A stretch of DNA of 64,000 nucleotides from Phytophthora colocasiae. Taxonomy: Eukaryota > Oomycota > Peronosporomycetes > Peronosporales > Peronosporaceae. Where the stretch lies: NCBI GenBank assembly GCA_018806915.1, contig JAGKQI010000089.1:372001-436000 (forward strand), read 5' to 3'. Shown one piece after another: positions 11,480 through 33,500 of the stretch (the stretch's first letter is position 1; the number at the start of each line of letters is the position of its first letter). The position numbers were made by a program, and so were the translations under genes. Below the pieces are notes generated by a model, which saw nothing but the letters and a program-made list of their open reading frames with translations, made no database searches and was not told the DNA's origin.

Positions 11480-11941
11480 TGTAATGGGTCTACTTATACC
11501 TATTAGGTGGCGTACACGTGCGCATACGTGTATGAGGAAGCGTCCAATTAGGTTAGACTTAATTTAAATATACTTATTTAAATAAGTATAATTAAATCAA
11601 ATATAAACGAATTAATACTGCAAATACCGTAAAATGAGAACTGTTATTGAATTCGGCACGGAGCCAATTATGGAACCTCCTAAAACTGTTTGTTATCTAT
11701 TTCTAAAGGATCTACCAACGTGTGGTTGGCAGAGTCTCTGCTATGTGATTAGTAGAAATCCATTACTTTCTACCAATAACATGCACAAATGCACACGAAC
11801 CACCCAATGATGTGGTTCGCCCATGTAGCCATTGGTGTGTACAGCACACCAAGGTCTAAGGCCCATTTCCAACCTCTAGCAGTTATCGCAACTGTTAGAC
11901 TTACAAGTGGTGTATCCTCTTGTATGTATAACCCCGTTACG
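11480..11941 (-). repeat. 3' LTR of Gypsy element 1
   Basis: 462 bp, nearly identical to 18204-18665. It starts TGTAATGGGT and ends near CCCGTTACG. It contains a perfect 20-bp palindrome, ATACTTATTT followed by its complement, near 11569-11588, and the hairpin TTGGTGTG-TACAG-CACACCAA near 11833. Confidence 0.9.
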
Positions 11942-12034
11942 CCGTTAAGATTCGACGTATCGGTCTCGACACGTCAATCGACAGAACTTAACAAAACCGT
12001 CAAGTTCCCGAGAGAAATACGAGTTCATTCTGCA

Positions 12035-13439
12035 ATGAACTGGCCAACGCCCTCGTCTTCGTCCGCTTCTGCGGACGCGCAAGCCTCTCCTGCTGCCTCT
12101 GCAGCACGAACAACAACCTCTGCAGTGCCCACTAGCACTGCTGTTTCCAGCGGCTCCACAGAGAAGCTCTCTGTCACCGAATACCATGCTCTCCACAAGG
12201 GGAAACATGAGAAAGATTTATACGAGAGACAGCAGGGTTTTTGATCCCTGCTAGAGAAGAAGACTTCTTCTTCTTCTCTAGCAGGGATCAAAAACCCTGC
12301 TGTCTCTCGTAGAAATCTTTGGAGACGACTACGAAGACATCGTCGACTACTACTACGACGATGTCGAGGAGGGAGCCCTTGACGACAAAGCTACCGCTCC
12401 CGTGACTTCTTCCGAAGACACGCCAGACCCACCCGTGGGGTCTCGACGCCCTCGTGATGAGGCCTCGGACGCTTCAAGCTCGAAGCGCCCCGCTTGCCCG
12501 CGCAGTGATGACAAAGCGCCCTTATGTCGAGGGCGCTCACTGCCCCGCGCACTGATCCGTCAGTTCGCGCACCAAGCAGCGAAGAAGACTTCGCGCAAGA
12601 GCAAAGTGCCAGAGTGGCAGGCACTTTGTCAGTCGTGGAACGCCTTTGTTGAGAACTTCAACAAAGTTTCGAAAGCGTACCGCGAGCGTGTTGCCGCGAC
12701 TCGCGATCGCTACTACACTTACACCACTCGTGGTTAGTGTGAACGCCTCCATGATCAGTCCATGGAAGCGGGGATCCCATGTGCCGTTCTCTTCGGCACA
12801 CCCTGCCCGTGTTGCCAACCCTTGGCAACACGTCTCTCAGAAAGTGATCTCCTGGGGTACACGCTTGTCCGTGTACCCGATCACATCAAGGAGCTTCGTG
12901 GTCGTTTCGAGCCACGCGGAGCTCCAGGTGCTGTGGCTGACCGCAGCACTCTTCGTGCAGGGCTTACCCCTGCAAGTTATGGTGGTCTTCGTACGCCATC
13001 ACCATTTCCGGAACGTCCTCCATCAGGACGTTCCGCGGCTCCCATGTATCTCGCTGGGGAGGAAATCCTCTCCAACGAATACGAAAACGAACTCCTTGAG
13101 AGTTCGTTCTCTTATGAGCCACGATCCGCTCCACAATCCAGCGGATCGCTCCACGCGCGTCGCGCAACGGCGGCGGAGGAGGCGGGAACACTCCCTCCGT
13201 ATGGTCAACGCTATGACCATGACGATTGTGCCCTGCACGATTGAGTTGCTACACTGGAGCAGCCCCAGAGCGCTGAGATAGCAGCTCTGAAGCAGGAGGT
13301 TCGTGTCCTCCGTGCTGAGGTTTGCGAGGCAGCTCAGACTGCCTCGAACCTCTCGTCCGGTCTTGGGACGAGAGTGAACCTGTTGATCGACCGTTTTGAC
13401 GGTCTCGAGAAAGCCTTCCAGGCCTCTCGCACTCCTTAG
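12035..13439 (+). CDS. Antisense ORF (aORF1) of Gypsy element 1, disrupted
   Basis: It begins 93 bp inside the 3' LTR, on the strand opposite pol. The ATG at 12035 gives MNWPTPSSSS, a Ser/Ala/Thr-rich head, then TEKLSVTEYHALHKGKHEKD. Other frames continue protein-like sequence: FGDDYEDIVDYYYDDVEEGA, WQALCQSWNAFVENFNKVSK, PCAVLFGTPCPCCQPLATRL, GYTLVRVPDHIKELRGRF, and a final coiled coil (AEIAALKQEVRVLRAEV ... VNLLIDRFDGLEKAF), stopping at 13437-13439. The repaired length would be about 450 residues. Breaks: a large palindrome at 12212-12320, a stop at about 12735 and frame changes near 13240. From 12964 on it overlaps the chromodomain end of pol tail to tail. I recognise no domain apart from the coiled coil. 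It could be a regulatory antisense protein, or a chance frame enforced by codon bias, though the composition argues for the former. Confidence 0.5.
12212..12320. repeat. Large near-perfect palindrome
   Basis: A 42-nt arm (12221-12262, beginning TACGAGAGACAGCAGGG) is followed after 7 nt by its exact reverse complement (12270-12311). Outside it the match continues about 9 nt with one mismatch (AAAGATTTA versus AAAGATTTC). It interrupts aORF1 between LIPAREED and EIFGDDYED. It looks like a snap-back inverted duplication of existing sequence, not a foreign insertion. Confidence 0.9.
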
Positions 13440-16400
13440 TCGGACTATCAACCGTAGGTTGTCCGTGCAGCACGTATGGCTTTCACCACCCGACGTAAAA
13501 TATCGGGTGTAGCCTCATGCTGGACGGTATGTCCAACCGGTACGCGTTGCCGTGCCGTTCAAGTACTTTGAACGGCCCAATGAATCTTGGAGCAAGCTTG
13601 GTTGCCCCAAAGTCAGACACTGTATGTTTAGGCAGGTTTTGTGTAGCTATCAAAACTAATGAACCCGTTTTGAATTCATTTATGTTGCCCCGACCAACAT
13701 TATCAGCGTTCAGCTTCTACAGAAGCTTCGATAGCATCCTCGACAAACCGTATTACGGCTTGTCAACGCTGGACAAAGTCTAGCGCACCAGAACAGACTC
13801 CTATCAGCTTGTCGCCTTTGTCAGCAGCAGGCCTTGCCTGCTCGCTATCTCTGTGCCCGGCACAGACATCGCGCGCTCGTTCCTGCTCGAACGAGACGTC
13901 GCACGCGTCACCGCAGCTGATAGTGTGCTGCTATCAGATGCATTCTGCGGTTGTTCGGACGCAACCGTAGATCCTCCCCCACTTAAGGAGGAAGCTACCC
14001 CACCGAGCATGCTCGGCAATCGTGGATGCCTCATGGCGTTCACGTAGAACGGTGTATGCCCTGTCGAGGCATGCACCGAGTTGTTGATGGCAAACTCTGC
14101 CATCGGCAAGCACTCGCTCCAGTGCGGGAACGAGTGAGCGTAGCTCTTCAGCGTGTCACCCAGTACGCGATTGACACGTTCGGTTTGTCCGTCCGTCTGC
14201 GGATGATCCGCAGTCGACATTGATAATTGTGAACCAAGAAGTGTAAACATTTCTTGCCAGAACCGCGCTGTGAAGCGTGGATCACGGTCCGACACAATAT
14301 CGAGCGGCATGCCATGGTGTTTGAACACCATGTCAACAAACAGTCGCGCAGTCTGCGCGGCTGTAACAGTTGTCGGGACGGCAGCAAGATGAACCATCTT
14401 GCTGAATCGGTCCACAAAGACAACAATGCCTGTCCTCAGGCGGAAGACCGAAGACAAAGTCCATGGACATGGACCTTGAAGAGGACCCTGCGAGAACCGC
14501 GCAGGCTTCACGCGTTGACAAACCTCGCAGGCACGTACGTACCTGCGCACCCTGGTGCCAGTAGAAGTCACGCGTGAGAAGAGTGTATGTCTTCTCACGA
14601 TCCGGATGCCCTGCCGTGGGGGTATCGGGATACTCGAACATGATCCTCAACCGGAGGTCATGATCATTCGGAACGACAATGCGATCCGCATTGTGGTCTA
14701 CTGCACTGTACAACAGTAGGCCTTCGTGTACACGATAGCGGTGTACACGAGCTCGAAGATGAGGGGTTAGCTTCCGACGTGCCACGTCGGAAGGTGCTGC
14801 GAGGAACTCCAGCAGCCCCTTCGCGTCTGCATCCCTTGCATACGCGTTCTTCACGTCGTCAATCAACGTTGACGACGGCACACTTGTCCTCACGACGCCA
14901 ACAGCGTTGGCGTCGACCGTCTCGGCATAGTCAGGTGGACGCGATAACGCGTCGGCCACTACATTGAGTCTTCCGGGTTTGTACTCCACCCGGAAGTTGT
15001 ACTCCGCGAAGAAGGACAACCATCTCGCCATACGTTGCGAGATGTGCGGCGACTTAATCGCCGTTCGCAATGATGCGTGGTCTGTATAGACCACGAACGG
15101 TCTACTCCCAAGTAGATACACTCGGAACTTTGCGAGTGCATACTTCATGGCAAGGAGCACCTTGTCATGTACGGGATAATTACGCTCAGCTGGCTTCAGC
15201 TGACGCGATTGATAATAGACTACACGATCACGCCCTTCGTGATCGTGTTGCAGCAATGCACATCCGATTGCAAAGTCGGATGCATCGCACTCTACGTGGA
15301 ATGGACAATCTTGGTCCGCCACGGCCAAGATCGGCGCTTCAGTCAAGCCCTGCTTGACTGCACCGAATGCCTCCTCGCACTCGGTCGTCCAAATCCACTC
15401 AGCTTCTTTCTTAAGAAGCTGTGACAACGGGCGAATCTTGGCCGCATAGTTGTCCACGTGCTTGCACAAGTACGTGGCAAGCCCAAGGAACTGCCTCAGT
15501 TCCTTCACATTGGATGGCGTGGGCCATTCATTGATCACTCTGACCTTCTCTGGGTCAGGGCGCACGCCGTCTTTCCCCACGAGACACCCCAGCACGGATA
15601 TCTCGCTCGCCCCGAAGATACACTTCTTCAGGTTCGCATAGAGCTTATGTTTCCTCATAAGCTCTAGCAGCTTCCGGAGATGCACCTTGTGCATCTCAAT
15701 GTCCGTCTACCCGTTCACAGCCCGGCTGTGGACGAACACGTCGTCGATGTAGCTCGGTGCGAAGTCACGGACCGAGTGCAATAGATGCGTCACGCAGCTA
15801 TTGAACGTCGCAGGGGCGTTCTTAAGCCCCTGAGGCATGAGGAACCACTCCCATAGCATACCGCTTGGCGTGCTAACCGTTGTGAGAGGGATATCCCTCT
15901 CGCGGATGAGGATCTGATAGAATCCATCACGCAGATCTAGAGCACTGAAGATAGTACTCAAGGCCATCGAATCGATGATAACATCTTTTTGCGGCATCGG
16001 CGTCTGCGCCGGTATCGTCGCATCGTTTAACTTGTTGTACGCATGAACGATGCGCCAGCCGCCCTGTGGTTTCTTCACACAGAACGTTGGGGCACTGTGC
16101 GGGGACTTCGATTCCCGCACTTGACCTGCAAGACGACGACTTTCAAAGAAGTCGTCGATCGCTTGTACTTGATCACGCGGCAGTGGCCACTGCCGTGTAA
16201 CACAGTACTTCGTGCCCCGCACGAGATCAATCTCGTGCTGTACGCCCTTATCCTTCGGAAGCTCCGAAGGAATCTCGTCCGGGAGTACATCCTTGTACTC
16301 CCGCAGAACTTCGTAGTAGGGACTCGACCTCAACGAGTTCCAACTCTACTCTTCGAAGCGCTGCTTCTTAGTCTTTGCACTGAGGGAGTCATCACCCTCA

Positions 16401-16460
16401 GTGATCCCATCGACGACGAGCTGCTTCAGCTCTTCGGCCTCACGCTCCACTCTCTCGACA
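12964..16460 (-). pseudogene. Pol of Gypsy element 1: RT, RNase H, integrase, chromodomain
   Basis: Order on the minus strand: a pre-RT helix (VEREAEELKQLVVDGI), then RT (16333-15710) with RQWPLPRDQVQAIDDFF, APTFCVKKPQGGWRIVHAYN and the catalytic APSYIDDVFVHS. An in-frame TAG at 15707-15709 is followed without a gap by MHKVHLRKLLELMRKHKLY. RNase H and its connection follow (VVYTDHASLRTAIKSPHISQ), then the integrase zinc region and core (FVDRFSKMVHL, DIVSDRDPRFTARFW, HPQTDGQTERVNRVL: the D, D and E residues). A GPY/F-like region (APRFIGPFKVLERHGNAY) lies near 13540-13640, and the chromodomain (WIVERIVAHK, FRIRWRGFPPQRDTWEPR) ends at 12964. Frameshifts lie near 14545, 14400 and after 13804. It was once a full chromovirus-type polyprotein. 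Confidence 0.85.
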
Positions 16461-16465
16461 TCCCA

Positions 16466-18130
16466 ATGGATCAGGGATCCACTGGGACCCCATACGTGTC
16501 CGTGACGCGCACGGACTGTGCCCACCAGGCAGACCCAGAGTGGGAAGCTCTCCAAAGACTTTCGCAAGTCATTGGAGAGACAGCGGTAGCGACGATGCTT
16601 CGTACGCTATCGCCGACAGAGCAGCACGGTGTTGCTCTGGGGTACATTGTTTAGGAGCAACGTGCTGTTGCTGCCTCGGTGGCTTCCCCAAAGCCACGCG
16701 TGGAGTCGTTGAAACTCCACGTGAGTACCTACACGGGGAAGGAGGACGAGATCCTCCTTCGTTGGCTTGTCGAACTCGACACAGTCGTTGCGGCTCGACA
16801 CGTTGTCGAAGGTCGCGTTCGCCATGTCATGTCTTGGCGGACGTGCGAGAAGTTAGGCCTATGGGCGCCTACTCTCGGATCCTACGTGCTTCAGCACGTA
16901 CGAGGAGTTCAAGGAGGAACTCAAGCTTGCGTTTGAGCCTCTGACGAACGAGTTCAGATCGAGAGCGGAGTTTCTCGATCTGCAGCAAGGCAAGGCTGAT
17001 GTTCACACCTTTGCCCAGCGTGCTCGATACTTGGTATCGAACATAGTAGCCAACCCGGTCGACGAGGCGACGAAGGTCGTCGCATGACCCGGTGATCAAC
17101 TGGGAGAAGCGTACGCTCGTACGCTTCAACAACACATGCGCGACAGAGAGCGATTGCCCTATCAGTGCTCCACAGTTGAGGCCACAGCGGCAACCGCCGG
17201 CGACCATCAACGACTCCGAGAGTCGTTGTGAGGAAATGTGTGTCAACTCAGAAATTTGTGCCGAAGGGTCGCGGTCACATGAGTGATGGTCAGATGAATG
17301 TGAATCACCTGAAGCGTAAACATCTGAATGATGTTTGTCACATGATTGATGGTCAGGTGAATGCGATTCACCTGAGAGAAGGTAAAATACCGGTATTACC
17401 GGTATCCTTGGAGGTACTTCAAGCCTCCAAGGGTCGCGCCGACGACGTCGCGTCAAATCTGGGAGTTGACGAAGCAAATAAAATTCGGAAAACCGAAAGA
17501 CGTTCGTCAGCCCCGGGAGCTGACGCCACTGGCGCGTCGCTGCTAGTTCCGGGAACTAGCGATCGTGCATCAGCCCCGGGAGCTGATGATACGTGTACAG
17601 GCAAACACTCGCTAGCGCTGGAAGCTAGCGAGAGCACGTCGACTCCGGGAGTCGACTGCGCGGCAGGAGGTGCTGGCGGTTGCAAACGCCCAGCACCCGA
17701 AGAACCTGCGTGTTCACGTGCTGCAGCGCTGCACGCGGTGTGCGGCACTCAAGCAGGGCTTGATAGTGCGAGTCAGCGGAATGAATCCGCTGACGATTGC
17801 GATAACGCACCGTCCAAGGTGAGACACCTTGGACGTGGAACACCTGGAGCTAGGCTCCAGGGAAGACCTTCGCGGCGCCAGCTCAGTGAGCTGTGCAAGT
17901 CTCAGTCCGGGACTGAGGAGGGCGTGTCTGCAGTGCAGATACCGAGTGTCGAGACGTTGAACGTCTTGCCACGGACTGGTACTGGGTTATAGTACCAGAG
18001 GATGCGGTTGGAGAATCCGCCGACGTGTGCGTCGGCGTTGACCGCACTTCCAACGATGAGTTGGAAGCGCTTCGCGCGAGACTTGTATGATGGACGCATC
18101 GAACAAATTCGCATTCTCTTGGGAGTTCTC
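16466..18130 (+). pseudogene. Gag to pre-RT block of Gypsy element 1, inverted relative to pol
   Basis: The plus-strand ATG at 16466 starts MDQGSTGTPYVSVTRTDC, which stops at 16654. The next frame has VESLKLHVSTYTGKEDEILL and RWLVELDTVVAARHVVE, the usual oomycete Gypsy gag core. It continues after a frameshift with YEEFKEELKLAFEPL and LDLQQGKADVHTFAQRARYL. A Ser/Ala/Gly-rich stretch (17228-17992) follows, then LYDGRIEQIRILL, the piece that normally lies just before RT. No CCHC knuckle is seen. Flipping this block restores the order LTR, primer site, gag, pre-RT, RT on the minus strand. Breakpoints are near 16465 and 18130. Confidence 0.7.
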
Positions 18131-18183
18131 TACTCCGCGTTCGTATGACTCCATACAAACAAATAGCAGTTGGTCGTGGGACG

Positions 18184-18201
18184 GACTACAAAGTGCTACC
18201 A
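18184..18201 (-). promoter_or_regulatory. Primer-binding-site-like sequence of Gypsy element 1
   Basis: On the minus strand TGGTAGCACTTTGTAGTC starts 2 nt after the LTR end. It begins with TGG, the complement of a tRNA CCA end. No equivalent TGG lies at the other LTR, which supports the minus orientation. The tRNA is not identified. Confidence 0.5.
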
Positions 18202-18203
18202 GG

Positions 18204-18665
18204 TGTAATGGGTCTACTTAAACCTATTAGGTGGCGTACACGTGCGCATACGTGTATGAGGAAGCGTCCAATTAGGTTAGACTTAATTTAAATATACTTA
18301 TTTAAATAAGTATAATTAAATCAAATATAAACGAATTAATACTGCAAATACCGTAAAATGAGAACTGTTATTGAATTCGGCACGGAGCCAATTATGGAAC
18401 CTCCTAAAACTGTTTGTTATCTATTTCTAAAGGATCTACCAACGTGTGGTTGGCAGAGTCTCTGCTATGTGATTGATAGAAATCCATTACTGTCTACCAA
18501 TAACATGCACAAATGCATACGAACCACCCAATGATGTTGTTCGCCCATGTAGCCATTGGTGTGTACAGCACACCAAGGTTTGAGGCCCATTTCCAACCTC
18601 TAGCAGTTATCGCAACTGTTAGACTTACAAGTGGTGTATCCTCTTCTGCGTGTAATCCCGTTATA
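18204..18665 (-). repeat. 5' LTR of Gypsy element 1
   Basis: 462 bp, starting TGTAATGGGT and ending TTATA before the GGGGA duplication. It differs from the 3' LTR at scattered single positions (for example ACTTAAACC versus ACTTATACC). Confidence 0.9.
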
Positions 18666-28174: not shown

Positions 28175-30502
28175 ATGGTGCGCGTGCCCGGATCTTCTGG
28201 TGACTTCGGATATCACCGTGAGTCCCAAGAAGATGTCAAGATTAAAGAAGAACAAGGGGAAGAAGTGCCTACGAAGGTTGGATCGACGGAGGCATCGCTT
28301 AAAGCGGAAAGATCCACAGATCAGCAGAGTTCTGGGAGGATCTCTACTGACAGGCACGAGGCAGACCTGGATCGCAATCCAGATCTCGAAGAAAAACCTC
28401 GAATTCCTCCCAAGGCCCCGTCGAGGGCCATTGCGGATCTCGATGAGAATCGAGATCCGCACACGAGCGATAAGGAATCAGTAAAGCTGAAACCTAATCT
28501 GCTCACCAAGTCCACTGTTGCCTCAAGATCGACCAAAAAAAAGAAGATCAAGAGCACCCGGACGAAATTGAAGGCTCCAGACTCAGAGCCAGAAGATGTG
28601 ATCAACCCAGGATCAACGATCACCAAGGACGCGATCGAACAGGCCTACTACAGGAAGAGGCTAAGCGAGACCTTGCTTAATGATCCTGTTCTTACGATCA
28701 TACAAGTCCGCCAGATCGGTAACCTCACCGGCCCAGTGTCGAAGCCCCGGACTAGCTCTGACCGCCTAAACGCGGTGAAGATCCTACTTGATTTGCTCCA
28801 AGAAGCTGGTTTGGTGGCTGGAGAGTTCGACCCAAACTCTCTATTTGACTTGGAACTGCAAGCGATTCAATCTGCGACCCAGGATCTATTCGATTCCCTC
28901 AAGATCTTGGTCGGCGAGCGCCCACTGACGCCCGACCCAGGCTATCAGACTGGGTCGTCATGCTACGCGTCGGCGACCTCGGAACCAGACTCAGATAGCC
29001 CGAGAAGGCTGCAACGCATGTCGTTAGGGCCCTCCGGCGCCAAGTTCCTGAAATCGCGTATGAAGAAACAGGATACGCGATCGGTGGCTGCGAAGCTGGA
29101 GGTCAAGATGCCCGATCAGCAAGAAAATCGCCGGATCCGGACGGACCAGACCGCGCTGACGAATAATTCCACTGGATCGAGCAACAAGTTGGACGACTAC
29201 TTTCAAATGGCGATGGATCGTTTCTTGAAAGAACGGAATCTCGCGACACCCCGATCGCCGATCAAAGGGGAGTTGGATGTTGAAATGGAGTCCGTCACGG
29301 CCTCGGATCCGGATGCATGGGAATACGATCCGGACGATCTGGGCATACCAAGTTCCGGGGGACAGATGTCGACCCGAGCCACGATCGCATCCGCGGCGAT
29401 CGGTCAAGGAGGATCGTCGATGATCCAACGGGTCCGGATATCAGCAATCTCGGATCTGAAAGATTTTGCGGGTAAAGATCTGGACGAAGATCGCGCTCGG
29501 GCCTGGATCAGTAAAGTCAAGTCGGCGTTCCAGCGCGATCAGGCTACGGAAGAAGAGAAATGCCTCACGTTTGCAGATCTGATGGTGGGACCGGCAAAGA
29601 ACTGGTACAGGCAGCTCAGTCGAACGACGAAAACCAAGTGGGCGGATCTGTTGGACAGTTTCCAGACCCAATATTGTGGGTTGGGTATGTCGGTCGCGTG
29701 GCAATACTATCACGCTCGCAAGCGATCGGAAGAAACCCCTCTCGATTATCTCTACCGGCTCAACGTGGCGGCTTTACGTGCTAGACTGAAGATCAAGGAC
29801 GGGAGCCCTAAGGCCCGCCGAGAACATGTGGACCACTACATAGAGACATTGGGAGATCCGGAGTTAGCTGATCGGCTGACCCTACTCCGACTGAGTGACG
29901 TCGAGGAGCTGGAGGAGGTACTCCGTGCCCGGGAACGGGCGAAAAGCAGACAGCGTAAATCTGCGTTCGGATCGAAGTACAGACAAAAGGCACCGGCCAG
30001 TGCCCCGGCAGCACCTACCCGAGCGGTGGTACGGGCGATCCAAACTCAAGATCCGAGCTCAGAATCAGAAGAAATATCCGGATCGGATGGATCCGATTCT
30101 GAAGGCGATCTCCGGAGGATATATCTTGCCGCGTCAGAAGACAAGTCGATCGGTACTGGGGGCGCTCCCCACCAACAGGATCAGTCGCGATCGCACACGA
30201 ACGTGCAGGACCGAGGCCGGACCACGGATCGCAGACAATCAGATCACGATCGAGGTCGCTGTTCGCATTGTGGATCGCGGAAGCACACGGATCTGGACTG
30301 CTGGAGACGTCTAACCTGTGACAAGTGCGGAAAGAGGGGCCACCCAACGGATCGCTGTCTATATACATGCCGTGGTTGTGGGGAGATCCATGAAGCTGGA
30401 GAATGCCCCATGGAAGAATTCTACAACCAGATCCGCAAGTGGTACGATCCGACCCGACATGCCGGACTGTTTCCCGAGAAGGTGGAAAAGATGTTAAACT
30501 AG
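28175..30502 (+). CDS. Gag polyprotein of Gypsy element 2
   Basis: 775 residues. The ATG at 28175 is the base after the LTR, and the primer-binding-like TGGTGCGCGTGCCCGGATC starts one base later, so either the start overlaps the primer site or translation begins further in. Residues 1-400 are charged and low-complexity. The capsid-like gag region (about residues 420-600) contains RAWISKVKSAFQRDQA, GPAKNWYRQLSRTTKTKWAD and ETPLDYLYRLNVAALRARLK. Three zinc knuckles near the C-terminus: CSHCGSRKHTDLDC, CDKCGKRGHPTDRC and CRGCGEIHEAGEC. Gag packages the RNA into virus-like particles. It ends TAA/TAG-type at 30502, overlapping the pol frame by about 100 nt. Confidence 0.92.
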   Translation: MVRVPGSSGDFGYHRESQEDVKIKEEQGEEVPTKVGSTEASLKAERSTDQQSSGRISTDRHEADLDRNPDLEEKPRIPPKAPSRAIADLDENRDPHTSDKESVKLKPNLLTKSTVASRSTKKKKIKSTRTKLKAPDSEPEDVINPGSTITKDAIEQAYYRKRLSETLLNDPVLTIIQVRQIGNLTGPVSKPRTSSDRLNAVKILLDLLQEAGLVAGEFDPNSLFDLELQAIQSATQDLFDSLKILVGERPLTPDPGYQTGSSCYASATSEPDSDSPRRLQRMSLGPSGAKFLKSRMKKQDTRSVAAKLEVKMPDQQENRRIRTDQTALTNNSTGSSNKLDDYFQMAMDRFLKERNLATPRSPIKGELDVEMESVTASDPDAWEYDPDDLGIPSSGGQMSTRATIASAAIGQGGSSMIQRVRISAISDLKDFAGKDLDEDRARAWISKVKSAFQRDQATEEEKCLTFADLMVGPAKNWYRQLSRTTKTKWADLLDSFQTQYCGLGMSVAWQYYHARKRSEETPLDYLYRLNVAALRARLKIKDGSPKARREHVDHYIETLGDPELADRLTLLRLSDVEELEEVLRARERAKSRQRKSAFGSKYRQKAPASAPAAPTRAVVRAIQTQDPSSESEEISGSDGSDSEGDLRRIYLAASEDKSIGTGGAPHQQDQSRSHTNVQDRGRTTDRRQSDHDRGRCSHCGSRKHTDLDCWRRLTCDKCGKRGHPTDRCLYTCRGCGEIHEAGECPMEEFYNQIRKWYDPTRHAGLFPEKVEKMLN

Positions 30503-33500
30503 GACGCTCGCCGGTTTGGAAACCGGTACGAGCCGAGCGTTCTGAGTACTGCATCTATGCATATGTGAACAAGAAATCGAGAGATCAAGATAGGGAGAAT
30601 TCGGATCTGCGCGGTAATACATGTAAGTTGCATTCGTATACTGCTAAGATCGCGAGTCTTCCCTGGATCGATGAGTTCTCGCGATCTGGTGCGGAAGTGG
30701 CCTTGGATCTCAAGGAAGGAGAATCCAGGGGGTACTGGAAATACCACGCACCAGGAAAATGGTTCCGCCAAGCCAAGATCTCAGGCAAGATTAATCATGA
30801 AAGAGCGATCTTGCTCCTGGACACTGGCGCCGAGGTATCCATCCTGGATACCACCTTTGCTCGTAAGGTTGGGTGCCACTTTGACACTAGTCAGAGACAG
30901 GAGTGTGTTGGGATCGGTGATAATGTGTACACCACCGAGGGAAGAACGAGGATCAAAATCACGCTTGCGGGATACTTGGTCTACTTTTTCGATATTTGGA
31001 TCGGGGATCTATCCGGGCAGGATGCGATCCTGGGTATGGATTTCATGATCCCGGCTGGGGTCCGGATGGATCTTGCGAAGGGATCGATGTGCTTACCTAA
31101 TGAAGTGGGGATCCCACTTAGTGGTCGCAAGAGATTATACGGGGAGAAGGTAAGATCGGTAAAATTGGAGGAAGATCTACATATCCCAGTTGGGGGATCT
31201 GAAGAGACCGCATCGAGAGTGAAATTATCGGCGACGGAGAGATTGTGGGTGACTAGAGGCGACCGATGGGTACCTACCGTGGTAAATGGACCCGGCCGAA
31301 CTCGGTACTTAGTGATCACGAATTTGAGCGAGAAGATTTTACGACTGGATCACAGATTACATGTCGGAATGGTACTTGATCAAGAAAAAGTTCCTCGATA
31401 CCCCGGGTTTGTGTCGGTCGGATCCCGGCGTTACATGGAGTGGCAGAATCTAGCTCTAGAAGCGACGGTGGACGCAAGACCAGAACCTCAGGAAACCGTA
31501 GAGATCCCCTTACCGTCGGTCGAACGGCCGACCTACGTTACGCCGCGATCTATACTCCGTCGAGGTGGGACGGCCAAGACCGATCTTGATCCTGCACCGA
31601 TATCGACATTGGAATCTCGATTATCAACCCGATCGACCGACGCAGCCGAAGTCAAGGTCACTTTCCTTGAACCCAAACAGGATCCCATGAATACCCCACC
31701 GATCACGATCATTTCCGATAGGACCCCGAGTGGCGAAGCTGGGGGCGGTGAGACTGAGACGAATGAGAGCTTGCCAGATCAGGCCCCAGATCGGACAGAC
31801 CGGACATGCGAAGAAGAGATCGGGGTAAAAACAGAAAAACCAGATTTTAAAATCGAGATCCAACATGTATCCGACGCCGATGCCGTCCCCATGGTTAAAG
31901 ACACCCCGATCTTGACAGCCAAGGACGATAGGCTGCGCGATCAATCAACGGATGAACCCGATCCGACATCTCCGGAAGGGATCGAGAACGCCGATCAGAC
32001 CCACTTACACGAAAGTGGCGATTTTTCGGCCGAAGATCTAGTCGATAATCTCGCAGTAGTACCAGAAATCCAGATCTCCACCACTGAAGAAGTCAAGATC
32101 GAAGATCTGCAAGTAGGAAATCCGGGATCGGCTACCCCGGAGGAGATCGAGAAACTTCGACAGATTATTTGGAAGAAGCGACATCTCCTGATCGGAAAGG
32201 GAAACGCACTTCCTCCAGCGGCCAAGGGTGTTATATGCGATATCGACGTGGGTGATGCAAAGTCGATCGCACAACGAGTCCGAAAGGTGGCGCCACAGTT
32301 CCGCGAGAAAGTATCGGATCTCATCAAAGGACTCCTAGCTGCCAAGATCATCCGACCATCGACCTCGCCATGGGCATCGCCGATCGTGGTGATCATCAAG
32401 AAGAACGGCGTGGACATCCGACTATGTATCGATTATCGGCTGGTGAACGGTCTCACGAGGCTGATGATCTACCCAATGCCTCTGATCAATGACCTGTTAG
32501 AAGATCTTGACAAGGTTCTGTGGTATTGTTCATTAGACATGGCGAGTGGGTTCTGGGTCGTGTCAATGACCGATCGAGCTCGCGCGATCTCAGCTTTCAT
32601 CACCCCGTTCGGCCTCTTCGAGTGGAATCGCATGCCGTTCGGGCTGAAGAACGCCCCTCAGATCTATCAGCGTCTTGTGGACAACGCCCTATATGGATTT
32701 TTGAAGATCTCCCAGTTAGGGAATACGGAAGACTCTACAGATGTGTTTGAATCAGGGGTCCCGGAAGATCCTGGTCGCCCGTCGGTTCTAGGACGGAGAT
32801 CCTACATCGACGATATCTTGATCACGGCTGGAACATGGGATCAAATGTGCGATCGGGTGGAAGACCTATTGGAGGCCTGTGATAAGTGGAATCTCTCGAT
32901 CAGTGTGGCGAAGAGCTTCTGGGGCATGGATAAGGTGGAATATCTCGGACACAAAGTGTCGATCGACGGATTGAAGGCAAACCCGAAAGACCTGAAGTCT
33001 CTGACGGATCTGCCATTCCCTGGGTCGCTCCGATCCATGCAATCGTTCCTGGGAAGTTTGAATTACTATAGTCGGTTCATCGAGGATTATGCGATCTATG
33101 CATCGGTCCTATATGAACTACGTGAAGTGGAGTTCGCAGAACTGAAGAAGCGACCAGATCTTCGAAAGATCATGGATAGTACGGACCCGATCAATCGAGA
33201 TCCCGTTGCGCTTAAGGCGAATCAGGATGGATCACCCGACACCTTGACTCAAAAGGGGAATAGTACGCCGGATCCTGACTTGGGGGCGACGCCTCCCCCC
33301 TGTTCAAGCAAGGTCGAAGCCAATCTGGCCCAAAGAGCTGGCGACGAAAGGTGGGGTAGGGCACACAGGGCGTTTACAGCCCTGAAAACCAAGATCGCGT
33401 CGACCCCGATCCTTCGCCACTTCGACATGACGAAGTTACCCGTGGTGATCGGGTATGCCAGTGACTGGGCGATTTCCGCCGCACTAATGCAGGAACACGA

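Follow-up and report, generated by a model that had tools for sequence, protein, structure and literature searches.

The window analysed here, a stretch of 64,000 bases without any N on contig 18 of the 92.5-Mb genome of Phytophthora colocasiae (105 contigs), contains a Ty3/Gypsy long terminal repeat (LTR) retrotransposon at 11480-18665 (7186 bp) that is filled with short perfect hairpins. This array of hairpins is genuine, and extreme for a feature confined to a single retrotransposon family. It has sharp limits and is absent from the other Gypsy families that we sampled. The pairing is accommodated within codons, shared variants are depleted in the stems, and several loops are found in inverted orientation in some copies. 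The reading that we favour, with modest confidence, is that selection on a folded nucleic-acid form maintains the array over this high-copy, chromodomain-bearing family.

Hairpin density in the element and its relatives

Hairpins were defined as perfect stems with arms of at least 8 bp and loops of 3-10 nt; a looser count used arms of at least 6 bp and loops of 3-12 nt. Under the main definition, 61 hairpins were found in the element against 13 in the other 56,814 bp of the window, and 30 dinucleotide shuffles of the element yielded a mean of 0.67 and a maximum of 3. The first-pass annotation of this DNA had proposed a comparison with codon-shuffled controls, and the excess stands in that comparison as well. 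Using shuffles that preserve both the protein and the codon usage (100 per pol frame), we counted 16 hairpins against a mean of 0.48 in the frame spanning reverse transcriptase (RT) and RNase H, 4 against 0.15 in the RT frame and 3 against 0.25 in the integrase frame. Nine other open frames of the window present 2-11 hairpins by the looser count against 1.7-7.3 in 50 codon shuffles each. Their largest excess (10 against 5.0, standard deviation 2.3) lies at 28175-30502, and none of the nine departs from its codon-shuffle mean by more than about two standard deviations. As a separate observation, an unannotated plus-strand stretch of long open reading frame (ORF) at 28175-31500 folds 7-8% more stably than its shuffles and contains a single hairpin with 13-bp arms at 28432-28461.

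All seven hairpins that the annotation had listed with full coordinates are exact. An eighth, reported near 15402-15423, is present (arm 9, loop 4) but lies at 15400-15421. The annotation had counted at least six hairpins in 375 bp against an estimated chance value of about 0.05; 7 were found in 14725-15100. A density of one hairpin every 25-40 bp, in contrast, was too high a figure: one hairpin with arms of at least 8 bp occurs per 118 bp and one with arms of at least 6 bp per 50 bp. Their spacing is not regular, and the gaps fit random placement.

The same array is present across the family. A genome search with a 401-base piece of pol returned 388 candidate places, 40 of which were scored, and all 40 match the piece at 99-100%. 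Density was counted in 20 of 50 family loci (L001-L008 and L077-L088, representing 14 distinct insertions), the other 30 (L009-L038) having foreign flanks. All 20 are dense in hairpins, with 7.4-16.7 per kb and a median of 13.8. The lowest value belongs to the window copy, partly because of small deletions, some of which remove all or part of a hairpin. The 30 loci with foreign flanks hold 13-43 hairpins each across about 3.2 kb, and at the boundary of the element the hairpins nearly cease (ten loci inspected).

A count in other copies and families had also been proposed, and the other Gypsy elements proved empty: no hairpin with arms of at least 8 bp was detected in 99,357 bp from 30 loci (L039-L068). 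These loci were the best hits of an RNase H profile and form clusters of 22, 5 and 3, so that they represent three families rather than thirty tests. The sister family, which we call X (L072-L076), shares 67% protein identity with the element in RT-RNase H, ungapped across 465 codons; its five copies present 3-5 hairpins per 3.9 kb, which is near background.

Geometry, variation and origin of the stems

The stems show perfect Watson-Crick pairing, usually measure 8-11 bp and enclose loops of about 3-10 nt. The most frequent arm length is 9 bp (48 of the 165 hairpins with arms of at least 6 bp; 52 of the 112 with arms of at least 8 bp), and arms of 9 to 13 bp number 48, 21, 7, 1 and 0 against 43, 22, 8, 3 and 1 for stems of exactly 9 bp with chance extension. 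Searched from 6 bp upward, arms in the 165 hairpins span 6-12 bp, apart from single-copy cases of 43 and 14 bp. Together with the scarcity of paired changes described below, this is not the pattern of Nematomorpha, where perfect repeats are long and their arms change in concert. The edges of the stems are sharp, pairing being at background past the arm (0.31, 0.24 and 0.23 at +2 to +4; 112 stems). Longer arms are lower in G+C (rho -0.24, p=0.005), which matches a requirement for stability. A bias in the outermost pair (C-G 55 and G-C 25 of 104) was left unused, as the window's chance stems show it too in a weaker form (34 to 23 of 116).

The folding energy exceeds that of order-shuffled controls, as it does in viruses with genome-scale ordered RNA structure (GORS). 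Relative to dinucleotide shuffles, the excess is 32.6-35.8% in three pieces of three copies, and when four pieces of 1.05-1.2 kb were folded, every one of their 56 arm-8 hairpins formed in the minimum-energy structure. Sister family X presents an excess of 12.2% with dinucleotide shuffles and again 12.2% with codon shuffles. The codon-shuffle value of another copy of X, L074, is unsafe due to a frame shift. The open frames of three other Gypsy copies (L040, L042 and L056) yield -2.5, -6.0 and -4.7% with codon shuffles. This slightly weaker folding and the lack of any arm-8 hairpin in 99 kb hint at an avoidance of structure in those elements. Family X, whose copy L072 folds about 12-13% more stably than shuffles without perfect hairpins, perhaps represents an earlier state.

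Comparison with family X indicates how the array coexists with the protein. Amino-acid identity is 0.67 in stem codons and 0.66 outside, and identities by codon position are similar in the two classes, in agreement with the earlier suggestion that pairing is accommodated within codons and leaves the protein recognisable. The two arms differ little in their divergence from family X (0.72 and 0.62; mean absolute difference 0.169, null 0.183), and this lack of asymmetry led us to reject an origin in which one arm served as the template for its partner. Within RT-RNase H, only 1 of 20 stems of the window copy pairs wobble positions with wobble positions, where a third would be expected. This bias is strong and agrees in direction with protein constraint, but in the longer open frames of three other copies, given below, it is weak and not significant. 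Because amino acids are kept, neither arm appears copied and the register leans in this direction, gradual building by tolerated changes fits better than the overwriting of arms. The array was probably built mainly by small, largely synonymous changes of this kind.

We then turn to variation among copies. A variant was counted as shared if its frequency among the other copies lay above one fifth and did not exceed one half, stems being defined on one genomic copy per segment. The variation counts omit the near-identical L012 and L071 and, in pol, the window copy L001, which was kept in pol for the loop-inversion scan and for the loop count at 12808-12832. The commonest-base comparison and the stem-edge and arm-length counts omit a simple-repeat stretch of segment r1. 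Shared variants were found at 6 of 1954 stem sites (0.31%), 104 of 5693 sites between hairpins (1.8%) and 29 of 554 loop sites (5.2%), that is, 6 times fewer per stem site than between hairpins and 17 times fewer than in loops. Rarer variants affect 186 stem sites, 621 sites between hairpins and 111 loop sites, and the ratio of shared to rare differs between stems and the sites outside them (p=4e-7). Rare variants are presumably mostly post-insertion decay, and shared ones would have passed through replication. When the commonest base was used to define the stems, a frequency of 0.2 was exceeded by 10 of 223 variants in stems and by 172 of 880 outside. Taking all variants together, stems have a clear deficit in segments r1, pol and gag; in r2 it is not significant relative to inter-hairpin sites (p=0.2). 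We also observed that pol singletons of L002-L008 are strand-biased in the pol sense (G>A 40, C>T 18), as if minus-strand complementary DNA had been deaminated or copied with bias.

Paired changes are few, although concerted mutation of the arms had been anticipated as a mark of template switching. One shared pair changes from G-C to A-T in 7 of 23 copies, one in the simple-repeat hairpin changes from G-C to C-G in 9 of 23, one occurs in a single copy, and one gag hairpin differs by two pairs between 3 and 7 copies. Arm conversion predicts such pairs for about half of the lost stem changes, so selection on the stems accounts better for the deficit, with some conversion possible. Indeed, correction of the arms does not appear as the main keeper of the stems, since the paired changes are too few for the missing stem variants.

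The alternative that survives best is mutational: template switching (quasipalindrome correction) during reverse transcription or replication would perfect palindromes, the hairpins would be functionless, and the polymerase or replication of this family would be unusually prone to the process. Template switching is a known source of new hairpins, of repaired ones and of inverted loops (PMC8794818), and inverted loops between related copies, the expected sign of a hotspot, are present here. Of 149 stems scanned, exact loop inversions were detected in 10 rows (about 8 distinct hairpins, one in the simple repeat), each involving one to four copies, against 6 of 4793 randomly placed control segments. 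The 43-bp-arm fold-back of the window copy is absent from the other 39 places scored, and the three copies compared directly have only a short hairpin at its site, from which it seems to have grown. In copy L007, 6 bases were lost so that an 11-bp stem closes, and the junction of an inversion of the gag-protease block in the window copy falls, by eye, at a small hairpin of other copies. A further case of palindrome perfection is seen in L086, where a 14-bp perfect stem at gag alignment axis 121.5 is interrupted in the other copies. To judge from the loop inversions and the fold-back, which match known signatures, template switching happens at the hairpins of this family; the fold-back, the inverted block, and stems that are perfect Watson-Crick with no general liking for G-U are likewise what a mutational origin would leave.

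Correction should, however, spread a change to the opposite arm about as often as it reverts it. At the rate seen between hairpins, about 36 shared variants would be expected in the 1954 stem sites, where 6 were seen, and few complementary pairs separate the copies. In addition, no arm looks copied, stem codons keep their amino acids, and neither the 9-bp mode nor the sharp edge is an obvious product of correction. We therefore consider a mutational origin possible but doubtful. Under selection on a folded form, template switching at the hairpins would be secondary, inverting loops and perhaps contributing to the repair of arms. The earlier annotation had left the choice between template switching, selection for a folded genomic RNA, or both, and both processes leave traces; the genomic (sense) RNA is a candidate for the folded molecule, on which the G-U tests described below conflict.

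It is improbable that the stems are protected from mutation rather than selected, with damage or copying errors striking unpaired bases. Loops are indeed the most variable sites and stems the least, but rare, mostly private variants are nearly equal (9.5% in stems, 10.9% between hairpins), and stem transversions are depleted as much as transitions, unlike deamination damage. Protection also leaves the existence of the hairpins and their clustering near 9 bp unexplained.

Element anatomy and the antisense frame

Membership in Ty3/Gypsy is established by LTRs that flank gag, protease, RT, RNase H and integrase in order (Table 1). The coding frames of the window copy are interrupted, and its pol is encoded on the minus strand. 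Pieces of other copies present the usual domain order: gag with a zinc knuckle, aspartyl protease, RT, RNase H, integrase, a Tf2-like SH3 and a chromodomain. Pfam detected RVT_1, RT_RNaseH, H2C2 and rve in the window, and Retrotrans_gag, zf-CCHC and RVP_2 in copy L080. In copy L034, Chromo (E 9e-12) and SH3_Tf2-1 follow the integrase, which places the family in the chromodomain-bearing branch. Among the matches listed, the nearest relatives of the element's proteins are in Phytophthora species, and relatives were seen among proteins of P. citrophthora, P. oleae and P. cactorum; no relative was confirmed in IMG/VR. Two other loci present rearrangements: L014:227-1816 joins two 3' element parts head to head into a large imperfect palindrome, and in L010 short internal segments (about 1019-1205, element coordinates) are inverted relative to the window copy.

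Table 1. Parts of the element and individual hairpins (window coordinates; arms in bp, loops in nt)
Feature	Position	Strand	Details
3' LTR	11480..11940	-	97.2% identity with 18204-18663; 4 hairpins of arm >=8
Antisense ORF region	~11934..13244	+	start approximate, placed by homology; broken up in window copy
Integrase frame (rve, H2C2)	13804..14646	-	Pfam domains; 3 hairpins of arm >=8
RT end, RNase H and integrase zinc-binding frame	14333..15706	-	16 hairpins of arm >=8
Reverse transcriptase frame (RVT_1)	15707..16345	-	4 hairpins of arm >=8
Gag-protease block	16463..18122	+	17 hairpins; inverted in window copy
5' LTR	18204..18663	-	3 hairpins of arm >=8
Perfect fold-back	12221..12311		43-bp arms, 5-nt loop; window copy
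Perfect hairpin	12808..12832		arm 11, loop 3; pol-sense loop GGG in 12/17 other copies, exactly inverted (CCC) in 2
Perfect hairpin	14724..14750		arm 10, loop 7
Perfect hairpin	14771..14793		arm 10, loop 3
Perfect hairpin	14854..14877		arm 9, loop 6
Perfect hairpin	14893..14915		arm 10, loop 3
Perfect hairpin	14970..14996		arm 9, loop 9
Perfect hairpin	15021..15044		arm 8, loop 8
Perfect hairpin	15076..15095		arm 8, loop 4
Perfect hairpin	15222..15248		arm 11, loop 5
Perfect hairpin	15400..15421		arm 9, loop 4
Perfect hairpin	15639..15666		arm 11, loop 6
Perfect hairpin, gag-protease block	17811..17835		arm 11, loop 3
Perfect hairpin, 5' LTR	18286..18307		arm 9, loop 4

The LTRs, gag, the antisense ORF and pol all bear hairpins, as had been described, but the plus-strand frame 17180-17992 is not an antisense gene, because the gag-protease block of the window copy runs in the opposite direction to that of 12 of 12 other copies, from which it also differs in being about 0.74 kb shorter. 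The true antisense ORF encodes 551 amino acids in copy L034 (L034:1216-2871, plus strand) and overlaps the chromodomain end of pol. Its protein has 468 matches at E<=0.001, with Phytophthora names on 117 of 120 among the matches listed; a P. citrophthora relative is 84% identical across 83% of the length. No Pfam family was found above the cut-off for this protein.

An antisense ORF with relatives in other Phytophthora raises the possibility that the hairpins are a by-product of coding on both strands, which would force local palindromes. We consider this very improbable: the antisense side (11942-13803) contains 15 hairpins, but the gag-protease block, RT-RNase H and the LTRs are about as hairpin-dense as the antisense ORF region, the search for conserved antisense genes in those three parts having been limited to ORF lists and Pfam. 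Chance, base composition or codon usage can be dismissed almost entirely, being refuted by the dinucleotide and codon shuffles, the rest of the window and the other Gypsy families.

Possible function and relation to known systems

If selection on a folded form maintains the array, the molecules under selection would most likely be the element's transcripts. The most likely benefit would be shielding: closed into many short stems, transcripts of either strand would pair poorly with their opposite or with small RNAs. At about 9 bp, the stems should fall below the length that Dicer needs. One extension of this idea views the array, near-uniform and spread over coding and non-coding parts and the overlap of sense and antisense genes, as armour against RNA silencing, in which stems restricted to Watson-Crick pairs close in both transcripts, impede annealing, hide from small RNAs and stay below the length cut by Dicer, and template switching is the price, paid in flipped loops, fold-backs and the inverted gag block. 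We put this forward tentatively and regard it as rather unlikely. Shielding as such is made plausible by the small RNAs of Phytophthora, which fall into a 21-nt and a 25/26-nt class, the larger deriving mainly from transposons (PMC3804510).

Several results weigh against selection on folded transcripts. In the same Phytophthora report (PMC3804510), the yield of small RNA per megabase was highest for inverted and tandem repeats, and local hairpins go with more small RNAs in maize (PMC10760457); as far as these accounts go, they speak against shielding unless short stems escape Dicer. Fixed mismatches in pol stems comprise 28 A-C against 7 G-U (p=5e-4), the reverse of what selection on the sense RNA predicts and in favour of the antisense strand, whereas elsewhere the counts are 13 to 13 in gag, 2 and 2 in r1, and 5 A-C and 3 G-U in r2. 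Shared single stem variants lean toward G-U and the sense strand (5 against 1 A-C and 2 other; 3, 1 and 2 in a second count) but are too few to decide. Given these conflicting results, selection on the sense RNA as inferred from G-U pairs was dropped. Hairpin energy likewise revealed no strand preference, sense and antisense being equal. The wobble-with-wobble register, in the longer open frames of three other copies, was slightly low at 7 of 37, 4 of 18 and 7 of 28 stems, none significant, and stem codons in 91 Phytophthora homologues differ by 0.033 (p=0.11). Finally, the evidence for the array comes from copies within one genome. If both strands had to pair, the lack of strand preference would be explained, and such a need would fit an element with a conserved antisense gene.

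The array shows how far structure at the nucleotide level can overlay protein-coding sequence without visible protein cost. With 40 or more near-identical copies and a sister family nearly devoid of hairpins, the genome offers a natural experiment that can separate selection for structure from template-switch mutation, a distinction still unsettled in RNA genes and in the mitochondria of nematomorphs. If it is true that the array shields transcripts, it would represent a sequence-only defence of a transposon against RNA interference. Our literature search, which is not proof of absence, found no report of such a hairpin array in a retrotransposon. The Chronos group of oomycete Ty3/Gypsy elements also has a chromodomain ending pol (PMC5348765), and the words "hairpin" and "antisense" do not occur in the available text of that paper. 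Chronos is described as carrying an added RNase H of archaeal type, whereas our Pfam scans, run without a dedicated profile, reported none.

In maize, local secondary structure in transposons resembling microRNA precursors is linked to small RNAs, but it is described as low-energy regions or hairpins (median length 25 nt) in some elements rather than as a saturating array (PMC10760457). Template-switch RNA hairpins share with ours the exact inversion of loops at perfect stems and the rise of new inverted repeats in one event; those cases lie in ribosomal RNA and microRNA genes, whereas the present array covers a whole mobile element (PMC8794818). The coding palindromes of Nematomorpha mitochondria are likewise perfect inverted repeats within genes, with amino acids kept and no excess of imperfect repeats (PMC6649704). 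They reach 284 bp, however, and their codon-register bias is clear, whereas the stems of this nuclear retrotransposon end at 8-12 bp, occur about 14 times per kb and only hint at such a bias. The authors of that study raise conversion of the arms; in the present family, paired changes are rare, which favours selection.

A close parallel is the GORS of pegivirus, hepatitis C virus (HCV) and coronaviruses, in which consecutive stem-loops also extend over a coding genome within codon constraints and the folding energy lies well beyond shuffled controls (PMC7642675). Values given there are 7.5-10.7% for HCV, 12.5% for human pegivirus (HPgV) and about 15% for SARS-CoV-2, with 23.4% as the highest whole-genome value and local peaks above 50% in one coronavirus gene. 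The excess of 33-36% in three pieces of this retrotransposon exceeds those whole-genome figures; the fragment length is the same (350), and steps and shuffling differ in detail. GORS as described is agnostic about which bases pair, whereas here the positions of the hairpins are conserved between copies and the stems are perfect and near-uniform. By this analogy, the array may work like the ordered RNA structure of viruses, built of discrete perfect stems and marked by the scars of template switching.

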